From Prevotella sp. (lineage in GTDB: Bacteria > Bacteroidota > Bacteroidia > Bacteroidales > Bacteroidaceae), in the NCBI GenBank assembly GCA_016284635.1, contig JAEEPF010000021.1, forward strand, positions 1 through 33,087: a stretch of DNA of 33,087 bases. The letters run 5' to 3'. The position numbers were made by a program, and so were the translations under genes. Of the stretch, positions 11,375 to 29,721 are shown piece after piece (position 1 is the stretch's first letter; every line of letters begins with the position of its first letter). Below the pieces are notes generated by a model. That model saw only the letters and a program-made list of their open reading frames with translations. It had not been told where the DNA came from and searched no databases.

Positions 11375-12500
11375 AGAGTGTCGTCAACCGACGACCAATC
11401 ACTTCGGGGGAGGCCAACTGACTGACAGATTCCGAGACAGCCACCCCATCAAATTCTTTTCTTGACACCACCTGACGCATGGCATCAGACAATGCCTGAA
11501 CGTCATCGACGGGTACAATCGTACAACCTTCCTCAATGCGCAGGCTCTGCGGTACACACTCAGTAGCGACTACCGGAATGCCCGTGCTCATCGCCTCCAA
11601 CAAGGCCAATGGCTGTACTTCACTACGACTGGCAAGTACCAGTGCATCAGACTGATAGAGCAATTTTCTTACATCATCCCTTGAAATCAGTCCGTGTGAG
11701 ATAACACCCTCGGACAGCATCGCCTTGCAAGCTGCAGAATCAGTGCCTCTGCCGGCTATATGTAACTCGACATCCAGTCCAGCTTCCTTTAATTGACGGA
11801 AGGCTGGCAACAGCACATCATAGCCTTTCAACGGCCAGAAGTTGGCCAGACAACAGAAACGGAACGGACGGTCAGACAACGACTCACGAGGTTGGTAATG
11901 GAAATAATCTACGTCGATGGTGTTAGACACCGCCTGCCAACGATAGGCCTTGCCGAAATAGCAAGAGATATTGTCGACCAGTTCCTCGGAAACGGGAATC
12001 ACCAGATTGGCGTTCTCGTAGGCGTCTCGTAAAAGCGGAATCTGCCAGGCACAACTGGGTGCTGGGCCAAACTCCTTCTCAAACACCAGTCGGGAGAGGT
12101 GTTCGGTGATGACATAAGGAATCTGATACTTCCGGCTGATCAGCATCGCTGCATAGCCTCCCCACTTCGAACAATGGGCGTGGAGGATATCAGGCCGGCC
12201 ATATTTATCGGTATAGTCGTCGAACATATCACAGACGATCTGCACCCAACGACGGACATTCCAACGGACGGTCAGAGGAATGCCACGCTGGAACGACTGA
12301 CAGACAGTGATACCATCCCGCTGATGTTCATAACGACGAAAAGGCAGGGAGAGGAAGTCTTTCAGTCTGATGGTGACACCCAACTGCACATTGCTGAGGA
12401 TACGCACCTCGTGGCCCTGCGCCTTCAGGGCCATGGCCTGATCGAGGCAGAACTCCCCGCCATAAGGGGTGAAGAAGGATGGTATCTCAAGGATATGCAT
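11349..12500 (-). CDS. glycosyltransferase family 4 (383 aa)
   Basis: Two Rossmann-like halves of a GT-B fold are recognisable. N-terminal: FFTPYGGEFCLDQAMALKAQG with the glycine-rich acceptor loop, and DILHAHCSKWGGYAA near residue 105. C-terminal: FCCLANFWPLKGYDVLLPAF, LHIAGRGTD, and the retaining-GT4 EX7E motif with Glu294 and Glu302 in EVQPLALLE followed by AMSTGIPVVAT. Such enzymes are cytoplasmic and transfer sugars from nucleotide donors to lipid-linked or polysaccharide acceptors. The gene is convergent with the GT2 pair and shares its final 26 bases with it. Upstream of its ATG there is only the heptamer array 12507-12569, so its promoter is not identified; read-through from rpsP would have to pass a terminator. 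Confidence 0.88.
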   Translation of the reverse strand: MHILEIPSFFTPYGGEFCLDQAMALKAQGHEVRILSNVQLGVTIRLKDFLSLPFRRYEHQRDGITVCQSFQRGIPLTVRWNVRRWVQIVCDMFDDYTDKYGRPDILHAHCSKWGGYAAMLISRKYQIPYVITEHLSRLVFEKEFGPAPSCAWQIPLLRDAYENANLVIPVSEELVDNISCYFGKAYRWQAVSNTIDVDYFHYQPRESLSDRPFRFCCLANFWPLKGYDVLLPAFRQLKEAGLDVELHIAGRGTDSAACKAMLSEGVISHGLISRDDVRKLLYQSDALVLASRSEVQPLALLEAMSTGIPVVATECVPQSLRIEEGCTIVPVDDVQALSDAMRQVVSRKEFDGVAVSESVSQLASPEVIGRRLTTLFNGLLVSA

Positions 12501-12506
12501 ATTTTA

Positions 12507-12569
12507 GAGGTAAGAGGTAAGAGGTGAGAGGTAAGAAGTAAGAGGTAAGAGGTGAGTGGTGAGAGGTGA
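12507..12569. repeat. heptamer array, nine units of GAGGTAA/GAGGTGA
   Basis: Nine consecutive seven-base units occur, mostly GAGGTAA or GAGGTGA with two single-base variants (GAAGTAA, GTGGTGA). The array sits in the 5' region of the GT4 gene. The same heptamer, on the other strand, recurs inside addA at 24411-24438. Confidence 0.9.
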
Positions 12570-12586
12570 GAGATATGAGATGGGAG

Positions 12587-12624
12587 TTAAAAAAGGAGGA
12601 ATGAGGTCGTTATCCCCATTCCTC
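12587..12624 (-). terminator. intrinsic terminator of rpsP
   Basis: Read on the minus strand, GAGGAATG and CATTCCTC form an eight-base stem (12624-12617 with 12603-12596) around a 13-base loop, followed at once by a run of six T (12594-12589). It lies about 30 bases after the rpsP stop. Confidence 0.8.
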
Positions 12625-16012: not shown

Positions 16013-19000
16013 TTGAGCGATTTTATTGAGATCAAGGGGGCGAGGGTCAATAATCTGAAGAATGTTGACGTCAAGATCCCCCGAAACAAATTCATAGTGA
16101 TTGCCGGAGTCAGTGGCTCCGGCAAATCTTCGTTGGCATTCGACACGCTCTACGCAGAAGGCCAACGACGGTATGTAGAGAGTCTGTCCAGTTATGCCCG
16201 ACAGTTTCTCGGGCGAATGAACAAGCCCGAGTGTGACTTCATCAAAGGCATACCGCCTGCCATCGCCATCGAGCAGAAGGTGAACTCGCGTAATCCGCGC
16301 AGTACGGTAGGCACCTCAACGGAGATATACGAATATCTCCGATTGCTTTACGCGCGCATAGGGCGCACGTATAGTCCCATCAGCGGCGAGGAGGTGAAGA
16401 AGCACACGACGGAGGATATCGTGCAGAAGATGCTGGAATATTCAAGTGGGACTCGCTTTGTGGTGATGGCTCCCATCCACCTGCCGGAAGGGAGAACGAT
16501 GGAGCAGCAGTTGAAGGCGTATATGCTGGAAGGGTATGCGAGGATTTACAGGCCCCCTAAGTTCTTCGCAGAGCGAAGCGGCAAAGCCGAGCGAGGGGGC
16601 GACAGGGGTCTGAACGAGGTAGAATTCATGCGGATCGATGAGTATCTGGAAACATGCGCTACTTCAGACCCCCAACCCCCTAACTTAGGGGGCTTGGACT
16701 TATACCTAGTGATCGACCGGCTCTCTGCAGATAACACTCCTGACAACATCGCCCGTCTGGTAGACTCCGCAGAGACAGCTTTCTACGAAGGTAACGGTTC
16801 CTGTCGGCTGCTCTTCCCACCGTCGAACATCTTCTATGACTTCTCGATGAAGTACGAGGCTGACGGTATGACATTCGAGGAGCCCAACGACAATATGTTC
16901 TCCTTCAACTCACCTGTCGGGGCCTGTCCTGAGTGTCAGGGATTCGGACGGGTCATCGGCATCGACGAGAAGCTGGTCATCCCCAACACGACCTTATCCG
17001 TCTATGACGGTTGTGTGGTCTGCTGGCACGGAGAGAAGATGAAAGAGTGGAAAGACTGGTTCTGCCGACATGCCGCAGAGGACGATTTCCCGATCTTCGA
17101 GCCGTATATGAACCTGACACAGCAACAGAAAGACTGGCTGTGGCATGGTCTGCCGTCGGACAAACGGAAGAAGGAACGTCCTTGCATCGACGCGTTCTTC
17201 GATATGCTCAAGGAGAACCAATACAAAATCCAATACCGTGTGATGCTGAGCCGGTACAGGGGCAAGACCAACTGCCCCGTCTGTCACGGAACCCGTCTCA
17301 AGCCAGAGGCGAACTACGTGAAAATCGGTGGCCGAAGCATCACCGACCTGGTACAGATGCCCGTTGTACGACTGAAGGAGTGGTTCGACCATCTGTCGCT
17401 CGACTGTCAGGACCAAGAGATCGGCAGACGACTGCTGGTAGAGATCACCAGTCGCCTGCAGTTCCTGTTGGATGTCGGACTGGGGTACCTCACCCTCAAC
17501 CGTCTCTCCAACTCCCTGTCGGGCGGTGAGAGCCAGCGCATCAACCTGTGTACGTCTTTAGGCAGTTCACTGGTCGGTTCCCTCTATATCCTCGACGAGC
17601 CGAGTATCGGACTGCACAGCCGCGACACAGAACGACTGATCCACGTGCTGAAGGAGCTCCAGTCGCTGGGCAATACCGTCATCGTCGTTGAACACGATGA
17701 GGAATTGATGCGCGCTGCAGACTACCTGATTGACGTCGGACCGGATGCAGGCCGACTAGGGGGAGAGATTGTGTTTGAAGGGGAAGCTAAAGATATTTTG
17801 GAAGTTCTTGGCGATGCCAAGCGGCAAAGCCGAGCGAAAGAAGTTAAGGAAGTTAAAGAAGTCAAAGGACAATACTCTGCGGTGGAGAAATGGCCGAGGA
17901 GCCATACTGTAAAGTATCTGCTTCATGAGGATAAGATCCCCGTACCTCAGACGCGTAGGCCATGGAACCGTCATATCGACATCAAAGGAGCCCGTATGAA
18001 CAACCTGCGTGGCATCGACGTACAGATTCCGTTGAATGTGATGACCGTTGTCACTGGTGTGTCGGGCTCAGGCAAGTCCAGTCTGATCAAGGGCATCCTC
18101 TACCCTGCCATGAAACGACATCTTGGTGAGGTCTGTGACTTACCGGGCGAATATCTCGGCATCAGTGGCGACATCGATTCCGTGAAACACGTGGAGTTCG
18201 TTGACCAGAACCCCATCGGTAAGTCCACCCGTTCCAATCCCGCCACATACGTCAAGGCCTACGATGCCATCCGTGACCTCTATGCCGACCAGCCGCTGTC
18301 ACAGCAGATGGGCTTCACGCCACAGTATTTCTCGTTCAACACCGAGGGTGGTCGTTGTGAGGAGTGTAAGGGAGCCGGTGTCATCACGGTAGAGATGCAG
18401 TTCATGGCCGACCTCGTCCTGGAGTGTGAAGCCTGTCACGGTCATCGTTTCAAGAAAGACATCCTCGACGTGGCCTATCACGGGAAGAACATCGACGACG
18501 TGCTGAACATGACGATATCAGAAGCCGTTGAGTTTTTTGAGGAGAGAAGGAGAGAAGGAGAAAAGAGAGAAGGAGAAATGTGCAAGACGATCGTCAAGCG
18601 GTTGAAGACACTCGAGGAGGTGGGACTGGGATATATCAAGCTGGGCCAGAACTCTTCTACCCTCTCCGGCGGTGAGAACCAGCGTGTGAAACTCGCCTAC
18701 TTCATCGGACAGGAGAAGCAGGAACCGACGCTCTTCATTTTCGACGAGCCAACGACTGGTCTACACTTCCACGATATCCAACGGCTGCTGCAGGCCTTCA
18801 ACGCCCTCATCGAACGTGGTCACTCCATCCTCATCATTGAGCATAACATGGAGATCATCAAGTGTGCCGACCATATTATCGACCTTGGTCCAGATGGTGG
18901 TGACCATGGAGGAGCATTGGTGGTGGCAGGTACACCAGAAGTGGTGGCGCAATGCAAGGAAAGCCTGACGGGACAATTCCTCAATGAGAAGTTAAAGAAG

Positions 19001-19033
19001 TTAGAGGAAGTTAAAGAAGTTAGAGGAAGTTAA
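16013..19033 (+). CDS. uvrA: excinuclease ABC subunit A with several in-frame repeat insertions (1006 aa)
   Basis: UvrA is the damage-sensing ATPase of nucleotide excision repair. Seen: Walker A GVSGSGKSS at about residues 32-40 and again near 681; first zinc module CPECQGFG...CPVCHGTRL; ABC signatures LSGGESQR (about 501) and LSGGENQR (about 884); Walker B/D-loop LDEPSIGLH and FDEPTTGLH; second zinc finger CEECKGAG...CEACHGHRF. Start is a TTG at 16013 (MSDFIEIKGARVNN); no in-frame ATG is nearby. At 1006 residues it exceeds the usual ~940. The excess sits in repeat-derived segments at residues about 180-201, 217-227, 597-619, 843-856 and the C-terminus 991-1006, all in linkers rather than motifs. 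The stop codon lies in a tandem array. It probably heads the repair block with addAB. Confidence 0.96.
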   Translation: MSDFIEIKGARVNNLKNVDVKIPRNKFIVIAGVSGSGKSSLAFDTLYAEGQRRYVESLSSYARQFLGRMNKPECDFIKGIPPAIAIEQKVNSRNPRSTVGTSTEIYEYLRLLYARIGRTYSPISGEEVKKHTTEDIVQKMLEYSSGTRFVVMAPIHLPEGRTMEQQLKAYMLEGYARIYRPPKFFAERSGKAERGGDRGLNEVEFMRIDEYLETCATSDPQPPNLGGLDLYLVIDRLSADNTPDNIARLVDSAETAFYEGNGSCRLLFPPSNIFYDFSMKYEADGMTFEEPNDNMFSFNSPVGACPECQGFGRVIGIDEKLVIPNTTLSVYDGCVVCWHGEKMKEWKDWFCRHAAEDDFPIFEPYMNLTQQQKDWLWHGLPSDKRKKERPCIDAFFDMLKENQYKIQYRVMLSRYRGKTNCPVCHGTRLKPEANYVKIGGRSITDLVQMPVVRLKEWFDHLSLDCQDQEIGRRLLVEITSRLQFLLDVGLGYLTLNRLSNSLSGGESQRINLCTSLGSSLVGSLYILDEPSIGLHSRDTERLIHVLKELQSLGNTVIVVEHDEELMRAADYLIDVGPDAGRLGGEIVFEGEAKDILEVLGDAKRQSRAKEVKEVKEVKGQYSAVEKWPRSHTVKYLLHEDKIPVPQTRRPWNRHIDIKGARMNNLRGIDVQIPLNVMTVVTGVSGSGKSSLIKGILYPAMKRHLGEVCDLPGEYLGISGDIDSVKHVEFVDQNPIGKSTRSNPATYVKAYDAIRDLYADQPLSQQMGFTPQYFSFNTEGGRCEECKGAGVITVEMQFMADLVLECEACHGHRFKKDILDVAYHGKNIDDVLNMTISEAVEFFEERRREGEKREGEMCKTIVKRLKTLEEVGLGYIKLGQNSSTLSGGENQRVKLAYFIGQEKQEPTLFIFDEPTTGLHFHDIQRLLQAFNALIERGHSILIIEHNMEIIKCADHIIDLGPDGGDHGGALVVAGTPEVVAQCKESLTGQFLNEKLKKLEEVKEVRGS
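16552..16693. repeat. inverted pair of C-rich elements in uvrA, one carrying a 30-base insert
   Basis: GCCCCCTAAGTT (16552-16563) is mirrored by AACTTAGGGGGC (16682-16693), and GGGGTCTGAA (16605-16614) by TTCAGACCCC (16663-16672). The two elements face each other around 48 bases of native uvrA sequence (FMRIDEYLE). The left copy contains an extra 30 bases (16564-16593) absent from the right copy. Confidence 0.85.
17802..17868 (+). repeat. AAGTTAAAG nonamer array in uvrA interrupted by the 30-base two-hairpin element
   Basis: Without bases 17807-17836 the stretch reads as four near-identical nonamers (AAGTTAAAG, AAGTTAAGG, AAGTTAAAG, AAGTCAAAG). The 30-base element sits after the first AAGTT. 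The region encodes the linker KRQSRAKEVKEVKEVKG between the two ATPase halves. Confidence 0.85.
18541..18577 (+). repeat. purine-only GGAGAGAA repeat in uvrA
   Basis: About 37 bases of pure A/G with units AAGGAGAG encode ERRREGEKREGE, an insertion before CKTIVKRLKTLEEVGLGY where other UvrA proteins have a short loop. Confidence 0.7.
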
Positions 19034-19088
19034 AGAAGTTAGAGGAAGTTAGAGGAAGTTAAAGAAGTTAGAGGAAGTTAGGGGGAGT
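18985..19088 (+). repeat. AAGTTAAAG/AAGTTAGAGG array spanning the uvrA stop codon
   Basis: About ten units alternate between nine bases (AAGTTAAAG) and ten bases (AAGTTAGAGG), giving a 19-base higher-order period. The array starts inside uvrA, supplies its last ~15 codons and TAA, and runs to two bases before the next ATG, also supplying that gene's GGGGGAG ribosome-site-like sequence. Confidence 0.9.
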
Positions 19089-19089
19089 T

Positions 19090-21129
19090 ATGAAGAGGTT
19101 CCTTGTATCCTACACCAGAACGATGCTGGCTGGCATACTACTCTGTATGTCTGTCAGCATCGTCGCCAAGGAGAAGGAAGACTCGCTCATCCTCGATAAG
19201 ATCTTCAAATATCGGGATGACAACATCTCTGAGTTCCAGTCGCTCGAAGACAATATCTACACGAAGTACCGCTTCAACGTGGAGGAACGTAACTTCGGTC
19301 TCTGGCTCATCCCGACGACCTACGTGCTGGCAAAAGACCCCCGTGAGTATATCCGTGAGGCATACAGCAAGTTGACGTTCAACGATGTCCATAACTTCGA
19401 CATCAAAAGTCAAGTGCTCAGCGGCACCATCCGCAAGAACCGCAGAGCCATGCCGACACTCATCGACTACATGACTCCGAACATCTACGATGTCTCCTTC
19501 TACGAGGGGCACGTGCTGTCGCCCTTTAACAGATGGAACCGCCGCTTCTACCACTACACCCAGATACGACTGATGAACGGTGCCACACGCCTCGACTTCC
19601 GCCCGAAGCTCTACAACACCCAGCTGTTGAACGGCTATGCTGTCATAGAGACAGAGACGGGACGTATCCTGAGAACCGTCCTCAACGGCGAGTTCGACAT
19701 GATCACCTTCCGTACGGAGATCACTCAGAGCGAGGAAGAGGGCCGCACACTGATGCCGGCGAAATGTAACACAGCCGCCACCTTCCGATTCCTGGGCAAC
19801 AGAATATCCGTGCTGTTCAATGCCTTCTACAACTGTCCCACAGACCTTCCCGACAGCATCGGATATATAACAGACCGGGAAATGATGGACTCGATCCGTC
19901 CGGTGCCCTTGAACCGGCTCGACAGGGCTATCTACGAGGCATATGACAAACAGCAGGAGGCCGCTGCCCAGGCTGCTGCAGCCGACACCCTGCCCCATAA
20001 GACGAACATCTGGAAAAAGATTTTCTGGGACTCCATTGGCGAGACACTCGTCACACCCATCAGTGCAGAGGCAGGTAACACCACCTTCCGTCTCTCACCC
20101 ATCATCAATCCCCTCTATGTCAGCTATAGCGGCAGCCGTGGCTGGCGTTACAAGATGAAACTGCGCATCAGGTTCACCTTCTCCGAGCACCGTTACCTGA
20201 ACATCGAGCCATCCATCGGTTACAACTTCAAGCAGCACCAGGTGTATTATGACGTCCCGATACAGATGATCTACAACCCGAAGCGAAACGGCTATGCAGA
20301 GGTCATCTATGCCAACGGCAACCGCATCAGTACCCCTGCCGTGATGGAAGCCATCAGCAAGGCTCATCAGGACACCATTAATCTTGAAAACCTGGACCTG
20401 ACAGAGTTCCGGGACAACTACGTCCGACTATTCAACAACATCATGGTCTTCGACTGGCTGGACATTGAGACGGGTCTGATACTCCACCAGCGCAAAGCCA
20501 TCAACCCAGAAGTGATGCACTACTACAACATGCCAGACGAATACCGGAGCTTTGCCCCCACGTTAGGTATCAAGCTGTCGCCCTGGCTCAAGAAAGGGCC
20601 ACTTCTCGCCATTGACTGGGAACACAGTTTCAAGGGTGTCAACGGATCGAACCTTTCCTATGACCGCTGGGAGTTCGATGCCCAGTGGAAATACCCCATC
20701 CCGGGCCTGCGACTGCTCAACATGCGTGCCGGAGTCGGTTTCTTCGCCTCCAAGACCTCCGACATCTTCCTCGACTACTCCAACTTCCGTGACGAGAACC
20801 TGCCTCAGGGCTGGAACGATGACTGGAGCGGAAATTTCCAGTTGCTCAGCAGCCAGGAATACAACGTGTCCGACTATTATGTCCGTGCCAACGTGTCATA
20901 CGAGTCCCCACTCATGTTGTCCACCTGGATCCCCTATCTGGGCAAATACATCGAGAAGGAGCGCTTCTACGTCAGCGGTGTGCTGCTCGAACGGTCCAGA
21001 CCCTACTTTGAATTAGGCTATGGCTTCTCCAACCGATATATCTCCGTTGGCGCCTTTGCCAGTTTCCGAAACACCAAGTTCGAGAAGTTTGGTATGAAAT
21101 TCGACTTTGAACTCTTTAAGCGATGGTAA
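19090..21129 (+). CDS. DUF5686-type outer-membrane beta-barrel protein (679 aa)
   Basis: Residues 1-26 form a signal peptide (MLAGILLCMSVSIVAKE). The remainder is rich in Tyr, Asn, Phe and alternating hydrophobic strands, and ends in FELFKRW, an aromatic C-terminus typical of outer-membrane barrels. Segments such as IYTKYRFNVEERN, RRFYHYTQIRLMNG and the C-terminal SYESPLMLSTWIPYLGKYIEKERFYV match my memory of DUF5686, a Bacteroidetes-specific family often preceded by a carboxypeptidase-regulatory-like domain; that N-terminal domain is absent here, making the protein shorter than many members. Function is unknown, probably surface or envelope-related. Its stop overlaps the addA start by seven bases, an unexpected coupling of an envelope protein with DNA repair genes. 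Confidence 0.8.
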   Translation: MKRFLVSYTRTMLAGILLCMSVSIVAKEKEDSLILDKIFKYRDDNISEFQSLEDNIYTKYRFNVEERNFGLWLIPTTYVLAKDPREYIREAYSKLTFNDVHNFDIKSQVLSGTIRKNRRAMPTLIDYMTPNIYDVSFYEGHVLSPFNRWNRRFYHYTQIRLMNGATRLDFRPKLYNTQLLNGYAVIETETGRILRTVLNGEFDMITFRTEITQSEEEGRTLMPAKCNTAATFRFLGNRISVLFNAFYNCPTDLPDSIGYITDREMMDSIRPVPLNRLDRAIYEAYDKQQEAAAQAAAADTLPHKTNIWKKIFWDSIGETLVTPISAEAGNTTFRLSPIINPLYVSYSGSRGWRYKMKLRIRFTFSEHRYLNIEPSIGYNFKQHQVYYDVPIQMIYNPKRNGYAEVIYANGNRISTPAVMEAISKAHQDTINLENLDLTEFRDNYVRLFNNIMVFDWLDIETGLILHQRKAINPEVMHYYNMPDEYRSFAPTLGIKLSPWLKKGPLLAIDWEHSFKGVNGSNLSYDRWEFDAQWKYPIPGLRLLNMRAGVGFFASKTSDIFLDYSNFRDENLPQGWNDDWSGNFQLLSSQEYNVSDYYVRANVSYESPLMLSTWIPYLGKYIEKERFYVSGVLLERSRPYFELGYGFSNRYISVGAFASFRNTKFEKFGMKFDFELFKRW

Positions 21130-24100
21130 CACCCCTGATAGTATACAAAGCCAGTGCCGGCAGCGGAAAGACCTTCACGCTCGCCACCGAATATATCTCC
21201 CTGCTGGTAGAGGACCCGATGAACTACCGCACCATTCTCGCCGTCACCTTCACCAACAAGGCCACCGAGGAGATGAAGATGCGTATCCTCAGCCAACTCT
21301 ACGGCATCTGGAAACAGTTACCCGACTCCGACGACTACGTGAAGGCCGTCCAGAAGAAGACGGGCCTCGACACGAAGGTCATCAGCGAACGGGCGGGCAT
21401 CAGTCTCTCCAACCTCCTCAATAACTACAACTACTTCCGTGTGGAGACCATCGACACCTTCTTCCAGAGTGTCATGCGGAACATGGCCCGTGAGCTCGAC
21501 CTCACCACCAACCTGCGCATTGGCCTCAACGACTATCAGGTGGAGGAACTCGCTGTCGACCAGCTCATCGCTGACCTCAGCACCACCGATGCCATGCTCC
21601 AGTGGATCCTACGATACATCATGGAGAACATCTCCGACGACAAGTCTTGGAACGTCATCGGACAGATCAAGCAGTTCGGCCGTCATATCTTCAGCGACGC
21701 CTACAAGGATGTCAGCCGCGCTCTTGAAGAGAAACTGGCTGAGCCGGGTTTCTTCGACCAGTATGCCACCCGTCTGCGCGAACTCCGCCAGAGTGCTGAG
21801 CAGCGGATGAAGCAGTTTGCCGACACGTTCTTCGACATCCTCGAATCAGAAGGTCTCACCGTCGATGACTTCCCATACGGCAAGTCGGGCCTGTGTAGTT
21901 TCTTCCTCAAGCTGCGACAGGGACAGTTCGACGAGGGAATTGTAGGCAAGCGTGTCACCGACAGCGTGGGCGATCCTTCGAAATGGTACAAGAAGAACCA
22001 CCCGCGTCGTGATCTCATCCACGCCCTTGCTGACAGCACCCTCGGCAGTCTGCTGCGACAGGCACTCGACGAACGTCCTAACCAGTGGCGACTCTTCAAG
22101 AGTGCCGACCTCACCCTGCGCCACCTCAGTCAGTTACGCCTGTTGAGCAGCATCGAGCAGAAGGTGCACGAGTTGAACCAGGATGCGAACCGCTTCCTGC
22201 TCAGCGACACCCAGCAACTACTCCATTCCCTCATCGGCGACAGCGACTCACCGTTCATCTTCGAGAAGATCGGGGCCCAGTTGGAGCATGTGATGATCGA
22301 TGAGTTTCAGGACACCTCCACCGTACAGTGGCAGAACTTCCGTGTGCTCCTCGACGAGGCCATGAGCCATGAAGGCAGTTCGAATCTCATCGTGGGTGAC
22401 GTCAAGCAGAGCATCTACCGCTGGCGAGCCGGTGACTGGCGGTTGCTCAACGATATCGAGAGCCAGTTTGATGCGCGACAGGTGGAGACGCGTTGCCTCG
22501 ACACGAACTACCGTTCACAGCGTCGCATCATCACCTTCAACAATACCTTCTTCCAGCAGGCCGCCCGACTCGAATACCTGTCGTTACAAGAGATCAATGA
22601 GGCCGAAGCCGATCAGTTGGGCAGGGCCTATGCCGATGTGGTGCAGCAAATACCAGAGAAGCGGCCCGACGAAGGATACGTCCGCATCGAGTTCTTGCCT
22701 GCTGAGGATTATCAGACACAAGTGTTCCAACGCCTGACAGAAACCGTCAGCGAACTTCTTGAGACTGGCGCCACCCAGCAGCAGATAGCCATCCTCGTAC
22801 GCACCAATGCCGTCATCCCCCTCATCGCCCAATACTTTATGGAGCAGAAGCCCGAGGTGACTATAGTTTCCGACGAGGCCTTCCGTCTCGATGCCTCCAA
22901 CGCCGTCTGTCTGCTCATCAACGCCATGCGACTGCTCGTCCGCCCTGACGACCAGTTGACGAAAGCCGCCATCGCCAAGAGTTACCATCAGGACATCCTA
23001 CAGGACTACCTTGGCGACGGCATCCACCTGCTGAGTGTGTCGGCATTTCATGACGACACCCAGCCCTCCTCCCTTCTCCCTCCTCCCTCCACGAACCTCG
23101 ACGCTCTCCTCCCCGAGGCCTATATCGCCCACTTCTCCGACCTCCGTTCCCTTCCCCTCTACGACCTCGCAGAACGCCTCTACACCATCTTCGGCCTTGA
23201 ATGCCTCACTGACCAAAGTGCCTATGTCTGTGCCTTCTACGACCAACTCGTGAACTACGTCAATGAGAATGCCGCTGACATCAGCGCCTTCCTCACCGAA
23301 TGGGATGAGACACTCTGCAGCAAGACCATCCAGAGCGACGAGACCACTGGCGTGCGCATCTTCTCCATCCATAAGTCGAAGGGACTGGAATACGAACACG
23401 TCATCATTCCCTTCTGCGACTGGCAGTTAGAAAAACAGTCGGGCAACATCCTCTGGTGCCAGCCAACTGAGGCCCCCTTCAACGACCTCCCTATCGTACC
23501 CGTCGACTACAGTCAGAAGCAGATGATGGGCACCATCTTCGAGGCCGACTACCGCCACGAGCACTTACAGAACACCGTCGACAACCTCAACCTGCTCTAC
23601 GTCGCCTTCACCCGTGCTCGCAGCAGCCTTTTCGTCATCGGTCGCCGCAAGGCCTCCGGCACCCGTTCCCTGCTCATCGAACAAAGCCTACCCCTCCTCA
23701 CTGACGCCCTCCGCGAATCAGACCCCAACGCCGACATCCTCCTCGAAGGCCTCGACGATGACACCGCCACCATCCGCCTCACCTACGGCACTCTCCCCTC
23801 AACGGAAAAGGAAGCCTCAAACATATCTCGTACCCCCGCACCATCGCACCCCCGTACCCCCGAAATCATTCCTCATTCCTCGAGCAACCCCTTCCTCCAG
23901 CCCTACGTCCCTCTTCCTGTCGCCATCCGCACCTTCTCCAGCAAGGTATCCTTCCGTCAAAGCAACCGTAGCAAGGCCTTTGTCGAGGCTGAAGACGAGG
24001 AGGCTGCACGCCAGCAGAACTACATCCAGACGGGTAGCATCCTCCATGAGATCTTCTCCACCATCCGCACCACAGCCGACATCCCCGACGCCCTGCAGCG

Positions 24101-24494
24101 CCTCCAGTCCGAGGGCATCATCTACGACGGGACCCTCACCCCAGAGCGTATCACCGGAATGCTTCAGAAACGCTTAAACGATCCTCGTGTAGCGGACTGG
24201 TTCTCAGGAAATTGGACACTCTTCAACGAATGTTCCATTCTCTCCATCGAAGACGGTCAAGTCTGTCAGCATCGTCCAGACCGTGTGATGACGGACGGCC
24301 ACCAGTGGATCGTCGTCGACTTCAAGTTCGGTTCCCCCAAACCCGAATACCACGACCAGGTCCGCCGCTACATGCAGCTCCTCTCCGACATGACCGCCTC
24401 AGACAAATCTCTCACCTCTCACCTCTCACCTCTCACCTCTATAAAGGGCTACCTCTGGTACGTTTACTCCAACCTCATCGAGGAAGTAAAATAA
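21123..24494 (+). CDS. addA: AddA/RecB-like UvrD-family helicase-nuclease (1123 aa)
   Basis: This is the motor and nuclease subunit of a double-strand-break end-processing complex that prepares 3' ends for RecA. Helicase motifs in order: Walker A ASAGSGKTF (Lys16), AVTFTNKATEEM, VMIDEFQDTS (about 388-397), IYRWRAGDW, NYRSQRRI, IFSIHKSKGLEYEHVI and LLYVAFTRARSS. The C-terminal nuclease shows GSILHEIF (about 970) and IVVDFKFG followed by HDQVRRYMQLL (about 1063), the PD-(D/E)XK pattern of AddA/RecB. In-frame repeat segments interrupt it near residues 647-657 (Ser/Pro-rich), 900-915 (48-base module shared with addB) and 1097-1105 (heptamer array). It begins inside the DUF5686 gene and is followed 29 bases later by addB. 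Confidence 0.88.
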   Translation: MVTPLIVYKASAGSGKTFTLATEYISLLVEDPMNYRTILAVTFTNKATEEMKMRILSQLYGIWKQLPDSDDYVKAVQKKTGLDTKVISERAGISLSNLLNNYNYFRVETIDTFFQSVMRNMARELDLTTNLRIGLNDYQVEELAVDQLIADLSTTDAMLQWILRYIMENISDDKSWNVIGQIKQFGRHIFSDAYKDVSRALEEKLAEPGFFDQYATRLRELRQSAEQRMKQFADTFFDILESEGLTVDDFPYGKSGLCSFFLKLRQGQFDEGIVGKRVTDSVGDPSKWYKKNHPRRDLIHALADSTLGSLLRQALDERPNQWRLFKSADLTLRHLSQLRLLSSIEQKVHELNQDANRFLLSDTQQLLHSLIGDSDSPFIFEKIGAQLEHVMIDEFQDTSTVQWQNFRVLLDEAMSHEGSSNLIVGDVKQSIYRWRAGDWRLLNDIESQFDARQVETRCLDTNYRSQRRIITFNNTFFQQAARLEYLSLQEINEAEADQLGRAYADVVQQIPEKRPDEGYVRIEFLPAEDYQTQVFQRLTETVSELLETGATQQQIAILVRTNAVIPLIAQYFMEQKPEVTIVSDEAFRLDASNAVCLLINAMRLLVRPDDQLTKAAIAKSYHQDILQDYLGDGIHLLSVSAFHDDTQPSSLLPPPSTNLDALLPEAYIAHFSDLRSLPLYDLAERLYTIFGLECLTDQSAYVCAFYDQLVNYVNENAADISAFLTEWDETLCSKTIQSDETTGVRIFSIHKSKGLEYEHVIIPFCDWQLEKQSGNILWCQPTEAPFNDLPIVPVDYSQKQMMGTIFEADYRHEHLQNTVDNLNLLYVAFTRARSSLFVIGRRKASGTRSLLIEQSLPLLTDALRESDPNADILLEGLDDDTATIRLTYGTLPSTEKEASNISRTPAPSHPRTPEIIPHSSSNPFLQPYVPLPVAIRTFSSKVSFRQSNRSKAFVEAEDEEAARQQNYIQTGSILHEIFSTIRTTADIPDALQRLQSEGIIYDGTLTPERITGMLQKRLNDPRVADWFSGNWTLFNECSILSIEDGQVCQHRPDRVMTDGHQWIVVDFKFGSPKPEYHDQVRRYMQLLSDMTASDKSLTSHLSPLTSIKGYLWYVYSNLIEEVK
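23820..23867 (+). repeat. 48-base in-frame module in addA, shared with addB
   Basis: The bases encode NISRTPAPSHPRTPEI. A 48-base segment at 26273-26320 in addB matches at 41 of 48 positions and is read in the same frame (NISRTSAPPHPRTSEI). It consists largely of CGCACCCC-like octamers and lies between the helicase and nuclease domains. Confidence 0.9.
24411..24438 (-). repeat. heptamer array inside addA, four CTCACCT units
   Basis: Four perfect CTCACCT units (reverse complement AGGTGAG, the same heptamer as GAGGTGA at 12507-12569) encode LTSHLSPLTS near the end of the nuclease domain, just before GYLWYVY. Confidence 0.9.
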
Positions 24495-24511
24495 TTCGTT
24501 TAATTCGTTGT
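24493..24511 (+). repeat. AATTCGTTTAATTCGTTGT spacer repeat, addA-addB gap
   Basis: This 19-base sequence overlaps the last two bases of the addA stop and fills most of the gap to addB. Its exact reverse complement is at 30754-30772, between truA and the EamA-type gene. Confidence 0.85.
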
Positions 24512-24523
24512 CTTAAAAAAAAT

Positions 24524-27316
24524 ATGGTTTCCTTTCTTGAACACGTCGCCTCTGACCTCCTCGCCCGCTTCGGCACTAACCTCTCCCGTGTCGCCGTAGT
24601 CTTCCCCAACAAACGTGCCTCACTGTTCCTCAACGACCACCTTGCCCGTCTGGCAGAACGTCCGTTGTGGAGTCCCGCCTATATCACCATCAGCGACCTC
24701 TTCCGCAGCCACTCCAGACTGCAGGTCGCCGACCCCATCCTGCTCGTCTGCGAACTCCACAAGTGCTTCACCCGATGCACGGGCATCGACGAGACGCTCG
24801 ACCACTTCTATGGCTGGGGCCAGCTGCTGCTCTCCGACTTCGACGACCTCGACAAGAACATGGGTCCTGCCGACCGCGTCTTCGCCAACCTGCGTGACAT
24901 CCACGAACTCGATGACGTGTCGTACCTCACCGATGAGCAGCGCAAACTCATACAACGCTTCTTCAGCAATTTCTCCGACGAACACAACAGCGAACTCAAG
25001 CAGCGGTTCCTCCGTCTGTGGAGCCGCATCGGGGATATCTACCACACCTTCAACGAACAACTCGCTGCACAGGGACTCGCCTACGAGGGTGCCCTCTACC
25101 GTCAGGTGGTTGAAGACGAGACCATCACCTTCGACTACGACACCTACGTCTTTGTAGGTTTCAATCTCCTGCAACATGTGGAACAGACGCTCTTCCGCCG
25201 ACTGGAGCGCGAGGGCAAGGCCCTGTTCTATCAGGACACCGAGGAACAGCCGCCTCAGCAGATCACCTTCATTTCTGCCCCGACGGAGAATATCCAGGCC
25301 CGTTACGTCAGCCAGTGGCTCACCCCTGAGCGTATCGCTGACGGACGGCGCACTGCGGTTGTCCTTTGCAACGAGGGACTGCTGCAGGCTGTCATCCACT
25401 GTCTGCCTGATACCGTCGACAAGGTGAATGTCACTACCGGCTATCCCCTCCTGCAGACACCCATCGCCTCGCTCGTCACCCAACTCCTCAACCTCCAGGT
25501 CAACGGCTTCTCTACCCGCACCCAGTCCTTCCGCCGCCGCTGGCTCGACACTGTTGCCCGTCATCCCTACGCCGCCTTCCTGCCCGAGGACTATGCCGCC
25601 ACCCATATCACCGACGGCCCTTCCCTCCTCCACTGGCTCCTCTCCCTCGTCCGCCACATCGCCACCTGTTCTGCATGTGGCAATACCATCGCCACCACTC
25701 CCGCCTCTGCTTCAAACTCCGCCTCAGACATTTCTCATTCTTGCGTCCCTTCAGTAGCAAGCGACCAGAGGTCGAGCGCCTCATTCCTCACTCCTCCTTC
25801 CTCGAACGACCCTCTTACCTCCGAGTCTCTCTTCCGTATGTACACCCTGCTCAACCGTCTGAGCGGACTGACAGACGAAGGAATCCTCACAGTCGACATT
25901 CCCACCTTACAGCGTCTCGTCGCCCAAGTAGTACAGTCCACCACGATCCCCTTCCACGGCGAGCCTGCCGAGGGCATCCAGGTGATGGGTGTGCTCGAAA
26001 CGCGCAACCTCGACTTCGACCACGTGCTGCTACTCTCCTGCAACGAGGGCAATATGCCGCGTGGCGTCAACGACACCTCGTTCATCCCCTACGCCATCCG
26101 CAAGGCCTACGGACTGACCACCGTCGACTACAAGGTGGCCATCTACGAGCACTACTTCCACCGTCTGCTCCAGCGCGCCCACGATGTCACCATCGTCTAC
26201 AACAACGCCACCGTCGATGCCCAGAAGGGCGAGATGTCCCGTTTCATGCTCCAGTTGATGGTCGATTCCTCTAACATTTCTCGCACCTCCGCACCCCCGC
26301 ACCCCCGCACCTCCGAAATCTCTTTTCGTAGTTTGCGCGCCGGTCAATCCCCCCTCCTCCATCAGCCGCAGCCCATCGACAAGACCGCTGCCATACTCGA
26401 CATCCTCCGCCAGCGTTTCTCCAATGACCGCGGTGGCATCAGTCCAACGGCTGTCAGCACTTACCTGCGCTGCCAACTGCGTTTCTTCTACCGTTATGTC
26501 AGCAACCTTCAGGAGCCAGACGATATCGATGACGAACTCATCGACAACCGCCTCTTCGGCAACATCTTCCACAAGGCAGCCCAGACGCTCTACGAGCCAT
26601 TCAACCGCCGTCGCGTCACCACCATGATGCTCGACGACCTCCTCAAAGACGAAGTAGCCATCGAGCGTGCCGTAGATGCCGCCATCCGCAGCGAACTCTT
26701 CAAGAATAACGGCGCAACCGATTCTTCACTCTCCCTCGACGGCCTCCAACTCATCAACCGCGAAGTGATTATCAAATATGTACATCTGCTTATTGAGACC
26801 GACAGACGCTTAGCGCCTTTCACCATCCTCGGTCTCGAAAAACATGTATCTATGCCTTGGGGAGATACAAAGGTCGGTGGCATCATCGACCGTCTCGACA
26901 GCGTCACCGACCCCGCCACAGGTCAGGAGCGCATCCGCGTGATCGACTACAAGACCGGCGCCCGTCATCTCCGCCCCATGCCCGACATCGATGCCATCTT
27001 CGACCCCGCCCAGATTTCCAACCACAGCGACTACTACCTCCAGGCCTTCCTCTATAGCCACATTGTCCGCCAGCATCGGGGAGAGCCTGTATCACCATCG
27101 CTTCTTTTCATCCAGCATGCCGCTGCCGAGGGCTACGACCCCACACTTGTCATCGGCCGGGAACCCGTCACCGACATCGCCGTCCACAGCGACCGCTTCA
27201 TCGCCCTCCTCAAAGAGACCACCGATGCCATCTTTTCTCCCGACCTCCGCTTCACCCCCACCGACGACCGTAACCGCTGCCGCTCCTGTCCCTACACCGC
27301 CCTCTGTGGCAGATAG
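24524..27316 (+). CDS. addB: AddB-like PD-(D/E)XK nuclease subunit (930 aa)
   Basis: Partner of AddA. The ATG at 24524 (MVSFLEHVASDLLARFG) is chosen; the frame is open further up but runs through addA. The N-terminal half has an inactive-helicase look: VAVVFPNKRASLFL occupies the place of a Walker A but has no GxGKT. The C-terminal nuclease has GGIIDRLD and VIDYKTG (about residue 807). Cysteines in LRCQLRFFY (about 649) and CRSCPYTALC (918-928) fit the iron-sulfur staple of AddB nucleases. Two repeat-derived Ser/Pro-rich insertions are present, about residues 395-435 (contains the two-hairpin element) and 583-605 (the 48-base module). The 350-base gap after it carries palindromes and the htpG promoter. 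Confidence 0.87.
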   Translation: MVSFLEHVASDLLARFGTNLSRVAVVFPNKRASLFLNDHLARLAERPLWSPAYITISDLFRSHSRLQVADPILLVCELHKCFTRCTGIDETLDHFYGWGQLLLSDFDDLDKNMGPADRVFANLRDIHELDDVSYLTDEQRKLIQRFFSNFSDEHNSELKQRFLRLWSRIGDIYHTFNEQLAAQGLAYEGALYRQVVEDETITFDYDTYVFVGFNLLQHVEQTLFRRLEREGKALFYQDTEEQPPQQITFISAPTENIQARYVSQWLTPERIADGRRTAVVLCNEGLLQAVIHCLPDTVDKVNVTTGYPLLQTPIASLVTQLLNLQVNGFSTRTQSFRRRWLDTVARHPYAAFLPEDYAATHITDGPSLLHWLLSLVRHIATCSACGNTIATTPASASNSASDISHSCVPSVASDQRSSASFLTPPSSNDPLTSESLFRMYTLLNRLSGLTDEGILTVDIPTLQRLVAQVVQSTTIPFHGEPAEGIQVMGVLETRNLDFDHVLLLSCNEGNMPRGVNDTSFIPYAIRKAYGLTTVDYKVAIYEHYFHRLLQRAHDVTIVYNNATVDAQKGEMSRFMLQLMVDSSNISRTSAPPHPRTSEISFRSLRAGQSPLLHQPQPIDKTAAILDILRQRFSNDRGGISPTAVSTYLRCQLRFFYRYVSNLQEPDDIDDELIDNRLFGNIFHKAAQTLYEPFNRRRVTTMMLDDLLKDEVAIERAVDAAIRSELFKNNGATDSSLSLDGLQLINREVIIKYVHLLIETDRRLAPFTILGLEKHVSMPWGDTKVGGIIDRLDSVTDPATGQERIRVIDYKTGARHLRPMPDIDAIFDPAQISNHSDYYLQAFLYSHIVRQHRGEPVSPSLLFIQHAAAEGYDPTLVIGREPVTDIAVHSDRFIALLKETTDAIFSPDLRFTPTDDRNRCRSCPYTALCGR
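25740..25778 (+). repeat. two-hairpin element, variant copy inside addB
   Basis: CTTGC...GCAAG forms the first stem and CGACC-AGA-GGTCG (25762-25774) the second. The left half matches 27541-27562 at 21 of 22 positions, while the second stem differs by paired changes from the CGGC-AAA-GCCG of the other copies. It is read as part of SCVPSVASDQRSSA. Confidence 0.85.
26273..26320 (+). repeat. 48-base in-frame module in addB, shared with addA
   Basis: Encodes NISRTSAPPHPRTSEI; matches 23820-23867 at 41 of 48 bases in the same reading frame. It is placed just before the C-terminal nuclease domain. Confidence 0.9.
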
Positions 27317-27394
27317 ACCTGAGAGGCCTTAAATGACCATCTTCTTACCCAAAATCAGTCAATAAAGTAAAAACTTTAAACAATTTTCAAAATA

Positions 27395-27419
27395 GTTGCC
27401 ATTTTTATCAATTGGCAAC
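27395..27419 (+). terminator. possible terminator after addB
   Basis: GTTGCCA (27395-27401) and TGGCAAC (27413-27419) form a seven-base stem with an 11-base loop, 79 bases past the addB stop. No T-run follows, so it may instead stabilise the 3' end. Confidence 0.35.
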
Positions 27420-27512
27420 CTTACAATAGTGTTAATTTGTGTAACCTAGCCCGAAAAGGAACTACTTTTTCAGTGGGCTCTAGGACAAGGAAGGTTGGAT
27501 GGTTGTGAAAAT

Positions 27513-27576
27513 GTCCTTGGGACAAGGACGAACGGGGTTTTTGCGTCCCTTCGGTAGCAAGCGGCAAAGCCGAGCG
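27513..27576 (+). repeat. palindrome cluster with two-hairpin element, addB-htpG gap
   Basis: GTCCTTG-GGA-CAAGGAC (27513-27529) is followed by a two-hairpin element copy (27540-27576) containing AAGCGGCAAAGCCGAGCG, identical over those 18 bases to the copies at 16576 and 17819 in uvrA. A further CAGGGC-ATC-GCCCTG hairpin lies at 27594-27608. The gap 27317-27666 holds no gene. Confidence 0.85.
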
Positions 27577-27617
27577 GGGGATGATGGAGGAAGCAGGGCA
27601 TCGCCCTGCAAAATGTT

Positions 27618-27633
27618 TGGCACGGTTTTTGCA
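27618..27633 (+). promoter_or_regulatory. sigma-54 type promoter of htpG
   Basis: TGGCACG (27618-27624), four bases, TTGCA (27629-27633) matches the RpoN -24/-12 consensus TGGCACG-N4-TTGCW at every defined position. The inferred start of transcription, about 12 bases beyond the -12 GC, would be near 27643, leaving a leader of about 24 bases before the htpG ATG. Confidence 0.7.
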
Positions 27634-27666
27634 ATGCCAATGGTAAAATTATTAAATATTTGATTT

Positions 27667-29721
27667 ATGCAAAAAGGTAATATTGGGGTTACAACCGAGA
27701 ACATCTTCCCCGTCATCAAAAAGTTTCTCTATTCAGACCATGAGATTTTCCTCCGTGAGATGGTGTCAAACGCCGTCGACGCCACACAGAAGATGAAGAC
27801 GCTCCAGGAGAAGGGCGACTTCAAAGGTGAACTAGGTGACCTGACCGTCCGCATCAGCTTCGACAAAGACAAGGGTACCATCACCATCAGCGACCACGGT
27901 ATCGGCATGACGGAGGAGGAGATCGACAAGTATATCAACCAGATCGCCTTCTCGGGTGTCTCGGACTTCCTCGAGAAGTACAAGGACAATGCCAACAACA
28001 TCATTGGCCACTTCGGACTGGGATTCTACTCTTCGTTCATGGTATCGAAGAAGGTGGAGATCATCACGAAGTCGTGGCAGGAAGGTGCCAAGGCCGTAAA
28101 ATGGAGCTGTGACGGCTCACCCGCCTACGAGATCGACGATGCTGACCGTGCAGAGCGCGGTTCGGACATCATCCTCTATATCGACGACGACTGCAAGGAG
28201 TTCCTCGACAAGTATAAGCTCGAGGGCCTGCTTCAGAAGTACTGTAAGTTCATGGCCGTGCCCGTGGCCTTCGGCAAGAAGACGGAATGGAAGGACGGCA
28301 AGCAGGTGGACACCGAGGAAGATAATATTATTAATAATGTGGAGCCGCTGTGGACAAAGACGCCCAGCACGCTGAAGGACGAGGACTACAAGTCGTTCTA
28401 TCGTACCCTCTACCCCATGAGCGACGAGCCGCTGTTCTGGATTCACCTGAACGTGGACTATCCCTTCAACCTGACGGGTATCCTCTACTTCCCGAAGATC
28501 AAGTCGAATATCGAACTGCAGCGTAACAAGATCCAACTGTACTGCAACCAGGTGTTCGTGACAGATCAGGTGGAGGGCATCGTGCCGGAGTTCCTGACAC
28601 TGCTGCACGGTGTCATCGACTCTCCGGATATCCCCCTGAACGTATCCCGCAGCTATCTGCAGAGCGACCGCGAGGTGAAGAAGATCTCCACGTACATCAC
28701 GAAGAAGGTGGCAGACCGCCTGAAGGCTATCTTCGCTGAGAACCGCAAGGAGTATGAGGAGAAATGGGACGACCTGAAGCTGTTCATTAACTACGGTATC
28801 CTCTCTGAGGAGAATTTCTACGACCGTGCGAAGGAGTTTGCCCTGATGAAGGATACGGAGGGCAAGTACTTTACCTTCGACGAATACAAGACACTCATCG
28901 AGGCAAACCAGAAGGACAAGAACGACCAGCTGGTATATCTCTATGCCACAGACAAGGAGGAGCAGTACTCATATATCAAGGCTGCCCAGGACAAGGGCTA
29001 CAGTGTGTTGCTGCTTGACGGTCAGCTCGACGTGCCCACCATCCAGACGCTGGAGCAGAAGTTTGAAAAGAGCCACTTCACACGTGTGGACTCCGACATC
29101 ATCGACCGTCTGATTGTGAAGGAGGATGCCAAGAAGAGTCAGTTGAGCGAGGAGCAGTCTGACAATCTGTCAGCTGTCTTCCGTACACAGATGCCAAAGA
29201 TTGACAAGGCAGAGTTTATGGTGCAGGTGGATGCCCTCGGTGAGGAGGCTCGTCCGGTGATCATCACGCAGAACGAGTATATGCGTCGTATGAAGGATAT
29301 GAGCAAGTTCCAGGCTGGTATGGGATTCTACGGACAGATGCCAGACTCGTATAACATCGTGCTGAACTCAGACCACCCGTTGGTGAAGAAGGTGCTTGAG
29401 GACTCTGAGGCTGCTACCGCCGAGGCTCTGAAGCCCATCGTCTCGGAACTCAAGGGTCAGGAGGCCCGTCTGGCTGCCATCCGTCAGGCTCAGGACAAGA
29501 AGAAGTATGACGAGCTGACACAGGAGGATAAGGACCAGAAGGCCGAGGCAGAAAAGGCCGTGCAGGAGCAGAAGGACAAGAAGCAGGCTGTCATCGCCGA
29601 CTATGCGAAGGACAACTCGATCGTCCACCAGCTCATCGACCTGGCACTGCTTCAGAATGGTATGCTGAAGGGCGAGGCCCTCGACAAGTTCCTGAAGCGC
29701 AGCGTGGACTTAATCAAATAA
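27667..29721 (+). CDS. htpG: molecular chaperone HtpG, Hsp90 family (684 aa)
   Basis: HtpG is a homodimeric ATP-dependent chaperone in the cytoplasm. The GHKL ATP-binding domain shows the N-box in EMVSNAVDATQKM, DHGIGM and the lid region GHFGLGFYSSFMV. The middle domain has FWIHLNVDYPFNLTGILYFP and VSRSYLQSDREVKKI with the conserved Arg that contacts ATP. The C-terminal domain is followed by a Lys/Glu/Gln-rich charged segment (residues about 590-655) and ends with VHQLIDLALLQNGML and a short tail. Length is typical of Bacteroidales HtpG and longer than E. coli (624). The ATG at 27667 follows a sigma-54-like promoter. It is monocistronic, ending at palindrome copy B. Confidence 0.97.
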   Translation: MQKGNIGVTTENIFPVIKKFLYSDHEIFLREMVSNAVDATQKMKTLQEKGDFKGELGDLTVRISFDKDKGTITISDHGIGMTEEEIDKYINQIAFSGVSDFLEKYKDNANNIIGHFGLGFYSSFMVSKKVEIITKSWQEGAKAVKWSCDGSPAYEIDDADRAERGSDIILYIDDDCKEFLDKYKLEGLLQKYCKFMAVPVAFGKKTEWKDGKQVDTEEDNIINNVEPLWTKTPSTLKDEDYKSFYRTLYPMSDEPLFWIHLNVDYPFNLTGILYFPKIKSNIELQRNKIQLYCNQVFVTDQVEGIVPEFLTLLHGVIDSPDIPLNVSRSYLQSDREVKKISTYITKKVADRLKAIFAENRKEYEEKWDDLKLFINYGILSEENFYDRAKEFALMKDTEGKYFTFDEYKTLIEANQKDKNDQLVYLYATDKEEQYSYIKAAQDKGYSVLLLDGQLDVPTIQTLEQKFEKSHFTRVDSDIIDRLIVKEDAKKSQLSEEQSDNLSAVFRTQMPKIDKAEFMVQVDALGEEARPVIITQNEYMRRMKDMSKFQAGMGFYGQMPDSYNIVLNSDHPLVKKVLEDSEAATAEALKPIVSELKGQEARLAAIRQAQDKKKYDELTQEDKDQKAEAEKAVQEQKDKKQAVIADYAKDNSIVHQLIDLALLQNGMLKGEALDKFLKRSVDLIK

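Follow-up and report, generated by a model that had tools for sequence, protein, structure and literature searches.

We detected a family of very small repeats, each composed of two abutting hairpins, in the genome of a Prevotella sp. (assembly GCA_016284635.1), starting from four copies in a 33,087-nt stretch of contig JAEEPF010000021.1 (positions 1 to 33,087, here called the window). The repeat is present in many copies, keeps its two-hairpin structure, lives in frame inside genes and is present or absent between near relatives. A mobile element is the most economical reading of these observations. We suggest, with about even confidence for and against, that it is a non-autonomous element that a putative transposase of the HUH (Y1) type moves in trans, probably in the form of folded single-stranded DNA; the assignment of an HUH/Y1 enzyme as the mover is a guess with partial support.

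The genome assembly of the window (3.67 Mb, 304 contigs, 82.8% complete) contained 73 matches to the 17-nt second-hairpin core AGCGGCAAAGCCGAGCG at up to 2 mismatches, 51 forward and 22 reverse, and none to the reversed form of the core. A looser pattern for other second stems gave 68 genome matches vs 7 for its reversed form, and a structural scan for the two hairpins across the collected loci gave 207 matches vs 0 on the reversed sequence (2 of the 207 were later dropped for lack of the usual feet). The core and structural-scan counts, set against those of the reversed sequence, exclude chance. In the loci around the pattern matches, 88 copies with TT in front were delimited in this genome. 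The initial reading of the window, made from the sequence alone (the sequence-only reading), proposed a genome-wide search for more copies, and these were found; it would have given the family up for want of further copies or of conserved stems, and the copies are numerous, with stems that stay paired in larger alignments.

Each copy follows a TT and is composed of hairpin 1, the abutting hairpin 2 and a tail, which is AGCG in 83 of the 88 copies, AGTC in 4 and ATCG in 1. The copies of this genome are 29 (3 copies), 30 (24), 36 (6), 37 (33), 38 (1), 39 (15), 41 (1) or 44 nt (5) long. Hairpin 1 occurs in a 22-nt form, CTTGCGTCC-NNNN-GGTAGCAAG, in a 14-15-nt form, CTTXG(C)-loop-(G)CX'AAG, and in further forms, namely a longer CTTTT...AAAAG and, once, CTCGAC GGGA GTCGAG, with most of the stem different. 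Hairpin 2 is mostly CGGC AAA GCCG, the other stems being CGACC/GGTCG, CGAGC/GCTCG, CGGCC/GGCCG and CGGGC/GCCCG, and the stems of both hairpins measure about 4-6 bp. The end variants AGTC, AGTT or AGCA were found replacing AGCG in loci L231, L063 and L065-L068.

Pairing of each hairpin was also detected in copies picked without regard to that hairpin. Among the 72 copies picked by hairpin 2 alone, 68 have an abutting hairpin 1 of at least 5 bp, vs 19% of shuffled upstream sequences, and 2 of the remaining 4 show a weaker abutting hairpin by eye. Hairpin 2 is paired in the 52 copies picked by hairpin 1 plus GAGCG alone, except for 5 with a mismatch in the second stem. Paired changes in both stems, proposed from the four window copies, were borne out in two larger alignments of distinct copies (37 and 19 rows), where pairing is kept and the covariation score was reached by 0 of 500 shuffles in both sets; the number of further pair types in these alignments was not above that of the shuffles. 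The alignment rows were selected mostly by a scan that requires pairing, whereas the 52-copy and 72-copy tests are free of that choice on the tested hairpin. The fourth pair of the short-type hairpin 1 is GC in 9 rows, CG in 6 and UA in 3, and the pairs of hairpin 2 exchange GC with AU and CG with GC. One row stands one base out of register in alignment A4 (G292) and one carries a wrong loop base in alignment A3 (L077), leaving the stems unaffected.

Within the window the structural scan (TT, two abutting hairpins, AGCG) gave exactly four matches, all on the + strand, and reading the window sequence confirmed all four copies named by the sequence-only reading, with their coordinates. Copies 1 and 2 are inside uvrA (16013..19033, + strand), both 30 nt long and in frame. 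Copy 1 (16564..16593) is composed of hairpin 1 at 16564-16578 (CTTCGC AGA GCGAAG), hairpin 2 at 16579-16589 (CGGC AAA GCCG) and the tail AGCG at 16590-16593. Its target side is CCCCCT AAGTT at 16553..16563, with the insertion directly 3' of TT; the empty site is a palindrome with the loop AAGTT, its CCCCCT side matched by AGGGGG at 16594-16599. Copy 2 (17807..17836) has hairpin 1 at 17807-17821 (CTTGGC GAT GCCAAG) and hairpin 2 at 17822-17832, followed by the tail AGCG. Copy 3 (25740..25778, 39 nt) lies in frame in the gene for an AddB-like PD-(D/E)XK nuclease (24212..27316, + strand), which probably starts about 100 codons further in, the database protein having 930 aa; it comprises a long-type hairpin 1 at 25740-25761, hairpin 2 at 25762-25774 (CGACC AGA GGTCG) and the tail AGCG at 25775-25778. 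Copy 4 (27540..27576) is intergenic, between the AddB-like gene and the downstream htpG (27667..29721, + strand); its length of 37 nt is not a multiple of 3, and hairpin 1 (27540-27561, first base T) and hairpin 2 (27562-27572) precede the tail AGCG.

Two kinds of first hairpin are thus present in the window, one of 15 nt with a 6-bp stem in the uvrA copies and one of 22 nt with a 5-bp outer stem in the addB and htpG copies. The CTT...AAG closure attributed to the first hairpin of every copy applies to the uvrA and addB copies, but the htpG copy reads TTTGCG...AGCAAG at 27540 and, starting with T instead of C, has a G-T wobble as its foot pair. The letters GAGCG, described as the end of the second hairpin, are present, but they are the last stem base G plus the unpaired tail AGCG. 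Single-strand DNA folding gave two hairpins in all four copies; 3, 12, 4 and 85 of 200 shuffles folded at least as well for copies 1-4, and the htpG copy is accordingly no more stable than its shuffles.

The relationship to reading frames was analyzed by excising the element in silico and reading through the flanks, with a frame required to be open for at least 60 codons on each side. Copies with a length divisible by three were in an open frame in 35 of 45 cases, vs 1 of 43 for the other lengths, 0 of 33 for the 37-nt copies and 976 of 1459 for random positions in the same loci. Frame-keeping copies therefore occur in genes about as often as random positions do, and frame-breaking ones are nearly missing there. 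Judged by the open frame, 18 of the genic copies of length 3n are in sense and 17 in antisense orientation. About 1.1 of the 6 frames contain a stop in distinct elements, vs about 1.6 in shuffles.

TT stands directly before 65 of the 68 copies having both hairpins, and the base before it is G at 63% and A at 22% of sites in a 204-site profile, in which TT was required at every site. Many flanks are palindrome halves or tandem-repeat units, for instance (the stroke marking the element) CCCCTCCTGAGTT/AGGAGGGG, AGGGGAAGTT/CCCCT, CAAAGTT/CAAAGTT and CCACATT/CCACATT. For comparison, 2497 control A/G-TT sites were taken from the loci that hold the 220 non-redundant insertion sites, unmatched for coding vs intergenic position; hairpins and tandem repeats are more frequent at the insertion sites. 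A hairpin stem of at least 6 bp spans the junction at 26 of the insertion sites vs 56 of the controls, a tandem repeat of at least 80% identity is found at 38 vs 57, and either of the two at 61 vs 102; 159 insertion sites have neither at these thresholds. Exact flanking direct repeats of 2, 3, 4, 5, 6, 7, 8 and 9 nt were detected at 2, 4, 0, 0, 0, 10, 1 and 1 of the 220 sites, so there is no general target duplication across them, and the 7-mers fit pre-existing heptamer arrays. The element was also found inside the first-hairpin loop of another copy, with two clear cases (L254 and L286); a third match (L171) is not clear, and L198, L291 and L302 look similar by eye.

Other repeats were noted in the window. 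A larger inverted repeat at 16553-16690, CCCCCTAAGTT...AGGGGG...GTCTGAAC ... TTCAGACCCCC...CCCCCTAACTTAGGGGG, is itself an in-frame insert in uvrA, absent from most aligned UvrA relatives, and its variants with CCCCTCC arms are hosts of many element copies elsewhere in the genome. Tandem arrays of the AGAGGTA and GAAGTTA types, whose units measure 7 and 9-10 bases, are located at 12492-12603, 17839-17874 and 18978-19090; elsewhere, the element has landed in such arrays.

Orthologous loci with and without the element, whose comparison the sequence-only reading had proposed, were found at the protein level: UvrA relatives (25 aligned of 120 homologues) differ in the presence of the copies. The 97% identical P0001 has copy 1 and is without copy 2 and two KEV repeat units. 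The 90% identical P0002 has PPKLGGD vs PPKFFAERSGKAERGGD of the window, a difference of exactly the 30 nt of copy 1; it carries RSALPLRSAK, a reverse-strand reading of the element, where the larger repeat has its partner palindrome, suggesting insertion of the element into an equivalent site on the opposite strand. An element peptide is present in the copy 2 linker of P0090 and, by eye, of P0005 and P0031. At the DNA level, where few of 30 loci were covered, an 89% identical uvrA (L324) has neither of the two copies nor the larger repeat. Eight-residue peptides of the element were detected in 4 of 120 UvrA homologues and in 9 of 120 AddB homologues; one of these nine is the protein of the window itself, and seven show no more than one 8-mer. 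Copy 3 is located in an AddB linker that is variable among relatives; among 22 aligned proteins it is present only in the window's own (P0121) and in P0122 (93%).

The core at up to 1 mismatch was detected in 77 of 150 genomes drawn from the genus, with a maximum of 151 matches (G138). In an order-level sample 6 of 247 genomes, the window's own among them, had a core match; the only clear carrier by inspection is G292, from another family, where 6 of 8 matches have a paired first hairpin and the copies have the same ends and a similar insertion context. A slightly different pattern in a phylum-level sample, with very few genomes from the genus, matched the window's own genome alone out of 395. 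A strict 37-nt pattern matched at least 102 titles in GTDB r220, many from ruminants, and among the matches listed all were Prevotella/Prevotellaceae except three contigs of one Bacteroidaceae isolate. Prevotella sp. khp7, whose record is not labelled as a metagenome-assembled genome, carries the element. Annotated phages or plasmids gave no element match and the strict pattern gave none in IMG/VR; the core was present in 20 IMG/VR stretches (L390-L409, some of them duplicates), 19 with the first-hairpin start by pattern. Among 10 proteins from the core-bearing IMG/VR contigs, Pfam matches were obtained for 2, both with DnaG-type zinc ribbons.

The fixed ends, the TT target outside, the conserved tail inside, the hairpins and the lack of general duplication make the element resemble the products of IS200/IS605 and RAYT chemistry, in which Y1 enzymes recognize hairpins and cut beside short guide-paired motifs (PMC6006769). 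By this likeness, TT (usually after A or G) would be the target and left cleavage site, with right-hand cleavage at AGCG, and the hairpin pair may correspond to the hairpins at the left and right ends of an IS200/IS605-like element, without any sequence in between. Tentatively, and with more doubt than belief, we propose a minimal class of transposable element, in which a pair of abutting hairpins, together as short as 28-30 nt, would be both ends of a cargo-free single-strand transposon, any pairing stem sequence would suffice, landing would be in hairpin loops including its own, and the length forms would be specialised for genes (30, 36 and 39 nt) and for intergenic life (37 nt).

A RAYT-type partner had been suggested for the family. 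A link to such a gene is possible: Y1 genes do exist in the genus, and 3 of 66 have a one-sided copy within 120 nt, but none is flanked on both sides. The final scan of these 66 loci, which are part of the Y1 matches found in the genus genomes, gave elements in five, on one side only, the distances to the frame being 66 nt (L198), 120 nt (L306), 118 nt (L369), 1027 nt (L202) and 2642 nt (L356). The three Y1 genes with a copy 66-120 nt away compare with 0.09 expected from density alone, uncorrected for intergenic placement, and 29 uvrA control loci of the same genus had no element. Over the 150 genomes, the element is carried by 67 of 112 with any Y1 protein vs 10 of 38 without, and a Y1 protein is present in 34 of the 36 genomes with at least 5 copies, the window's own being counted through a fragment. 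At least one copy was found in 22 of 28 genomes with a RAYT-like protein vs 55 of 122 without, in 53 of 80 with a divergent Y1 class vs 24 of 70 without, and in 14 of 16 with the closest members of that class vs 63 of 134 without. IS200-like Y1 proteins showed no association with the element (12 of 31 with vs 65 of 119 without).

Candidate movers were inspected class by class. For RAYT, 20 loci were inspected, 19 with Y1 genes of about 250-290 aa, and no full element was seen at the gene ends. For the classes of about 180 aa, also in 20 loci, most with such a gene, the single adjoining element lies 120 nt downstream of the gene in L306; by eye, flanking repeats of the GTAGGGGC type and of the GGATTTGCAATCCGC type were seen. 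The genes of about 180 aa in L306, L308, L318 and L319 resemble by eye the published motifs of TnpA-REP subclass 2.6 and adjoin hairpins of the GGATTTGCAATCCGC / GCATTTGTAATGC type, which are candidate atypical REPs. The divergent Y1-type class (L356, L357, L358, L359, L360 and L370) has the motifs RHHRE...PDHVH...YVKDNPRRLW with a weak Pfam score, an insert of repeats that varies, and a C-terminal part for which Pfam gives nothing above the cut-off; a profile search detected it in 80 of the 150 genus genomes, with up to 15 matches per genome. The RAYT-like proteins of L369 (119-967) and L368 read, by eye, TPKQFR vs MPNHVH in the HUH stretch and are possibly inactive, judging from these residues; the element near L369 lies downstream of the gene. 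Frames from 191 loci were clustered, and no recurrent transposase adjoining the element was among the clusters shown; the commonest cluster, from 13 loci, resembles the HU-type DNA-binding family. By hand count, 8 of the 31 HU-HIG genes (PF18291) in the window's genome are within about 1.2 kb of an element, with about 2 expected from density.

Several results weigh against a Y1 enzyme as the mover. None of the 66 Y1 loci has an element on both sides within 200 nt, the three Y1 genes with a one-sided copy belong to different classes, and the association counts were compiled by hand, with classes by frame length and phylogeny ignored. The window's genome has many copies and only a 98-aa Y1 fragment, the divergent Y1 class was not found there by the profile search, and G149 has 34 copies and no Y1 match, both assemblies being incomplete. 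No autonomous copy was seen, the hairpins of the 68 of 72 copies mentioned above lying directly side by side. A preference for the template of the lagging strand is described for known Y1 elements (PMC6006769), whereas one complete genome showed no replication-strand bias, with 18 copies on the leading and 19 on the lagging strand (2 copies near the terminus left out, strand sense taken from the GC skew of 20 sampled stretches). The scan detected no element in the 3.2-kb locus of the Y1 fragment and its adjoining TnpB-like gene, and no ends shared with a resident autonomous IS200/IS605 element were found in this 82.8% complete genome.

Spread by recombination, gene conversion and template switching at hairpins, with no mobile element proper and with the paired changes produced by arm-to-arm correction, is in our view unlikely, although such correction could likewise yield paired changes. 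The enrichment of copies in tandem arrays and other repeats, places at which one would expect template switching, and the variation of uvrA copy 2 between relatives along with the two tandem KEV units fit this explanation. It accounts less well for both ends being exact in many surroundings, with the 159 of 220 sites that show no hairpin or tandem repeat at the thresholds, for the inverted element in the partner palindrome of the same gene in the 90% UvrA relative, and for an element with the same ends in a genome of another family (G292).

A mobile element using an RNA route, in which folded RNA would be inserted into structured RNA or nicked DNA and then copied by reverse transcriptase, seems to us quite improbable. 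The preference for hairpin loops and the missing general target duplication are compatible with it, and missing duplications have led to the same suggestion for Allomyces elements (PMC2800124); the in-frame genic copies are nevertheless 18 sense and 17 antisense, which argues against insertion into messenger RNA, since that would favour sense. Hairpins useful to the host, for instance as terminators, as stabilisers of RNA or as sites bound by proteins, and retained at each site for that function, would explain a paired structure kept despite sequence change. We consider this explanation hardly credible for elements that occur in both orientations, whose frame-keeping copies fall within genes at about the rate of random positions (35 of 45 vs 976 of 1459), and which are patchy between relatives and have no relevant Rfam match from 16400 to 27800 of the window.

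The element, moved in trans as proposed, would rank with the smallest mobile DNA elements on record. It is common in the sampled genus, with 77 of 150 genomes carrying it, and adds 10-13 in-frame residues to proteins as conserved as UvrA. Its variable stem sequence with kept pairing lends itself to testing whether a DNA-moving enzyme recognizes structure, and the movement of tiny hairpin repeats without a known transposase, such as those of mitochondria and cyanobacteria, could then be tested in a bacterium of which a named strain, khp7, is recorded.

Double-hairpin elements of Allomyces mitochondria were reportedly described by Paquin in 2000, and very small mobile repeats of Nostoc, said to enter other repeats and to have no known transposase, by Elhai in 2008. 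The Nostoc small dispersed repeats are cyanobacterial sequences. The literature compared comprised PMC3733652 (GTAG and CGTC REPs), PMC6006769, PMC10969869, PMC3116915, PMC2800124 and PMC4478555. Literature searches gave no description of the family, in agreement with the sequence-only reading, which knew of no named family with this sequence; the motif GCAAAGCCGAGCG gave a single match, a paper on Taq polymerase mutants (PMC4153296), and Rfam gave no relevant match over 16400 to 27800 of the window.

The likeness to Rickettsia palindromic elements (RPEs), drawn at the outset, holds for the way of working, with short palindromic DNA that occurs outside genes and, in frame, within genes of unrelated kinds, but not for size or peptide. 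RPEs are about 150 bp long and encode a conserved peptide (PMC10969869), whereas the element here is 29-44 nt, occurs in both orientations and several frames, and has no fixed peptide, as the 18 sense and 17 antisense genic copies and the different peptides in UvrA and AddB relatives demonstrate. The Allomyces mitochondrial double-hairpin elements, thought to be mobile and without flanking duplication (PMC2800124), share the two adjacent hairpins and the lack of duplication, a likeness of form only; they belong to fungal mitochondrial DNA, whereas the present element is in a bacterial chromosome, with TT before, AGCG after and frame-keeping genic forms.

REPs and REPINs with RAYT share the small hairpins and many copies, but no GT[AG]G foot is present here, the feet being CTT...AAG and CG...CG and GTAG occurring only within the 22-nt first hairpin. 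In Bacteroidetes, genes of REP/RAYT subclass 2.6 are flanked by atypical hairpins with copies elsewhere, and REPs of subclass 2.4 are inserted in frame in their own transposase gene (PMC6006769). CGTC-tagged REPs, reported from Bacteroidetes among other phyla, are single hairpins of 8-9 bp ending in an unpaired CGTC; no transposase is known for them, and genes are among their locations (PMC3733652); the present element shares the small palindromes, the genic copies and the lack of a known transposase, but has two hairpins, and CGTC is confined to hairpin 1 in one of its subtypes. With IS200/IS605-derived elements it shares insertion on the 3' side of a short constant target that is not duplicated (TT in 65 of 68, and the protein-level empty site), but neither the lagging-strand bias nor the ends in common with a resident autonomous element. 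As for MITEs, the ends CTT and AGCG are not inverted repeats, and flanking repeats of 2-9 nt are present at few of the 220 sites. The element thus fails at least one tested defining feature each of RPE, REP and MITE; its closest counterparts are the mitochondrial double-hairpin elements in form, the RPEs and Nostoc repeats in habit, and REP/RAYT in presumed chemistry.

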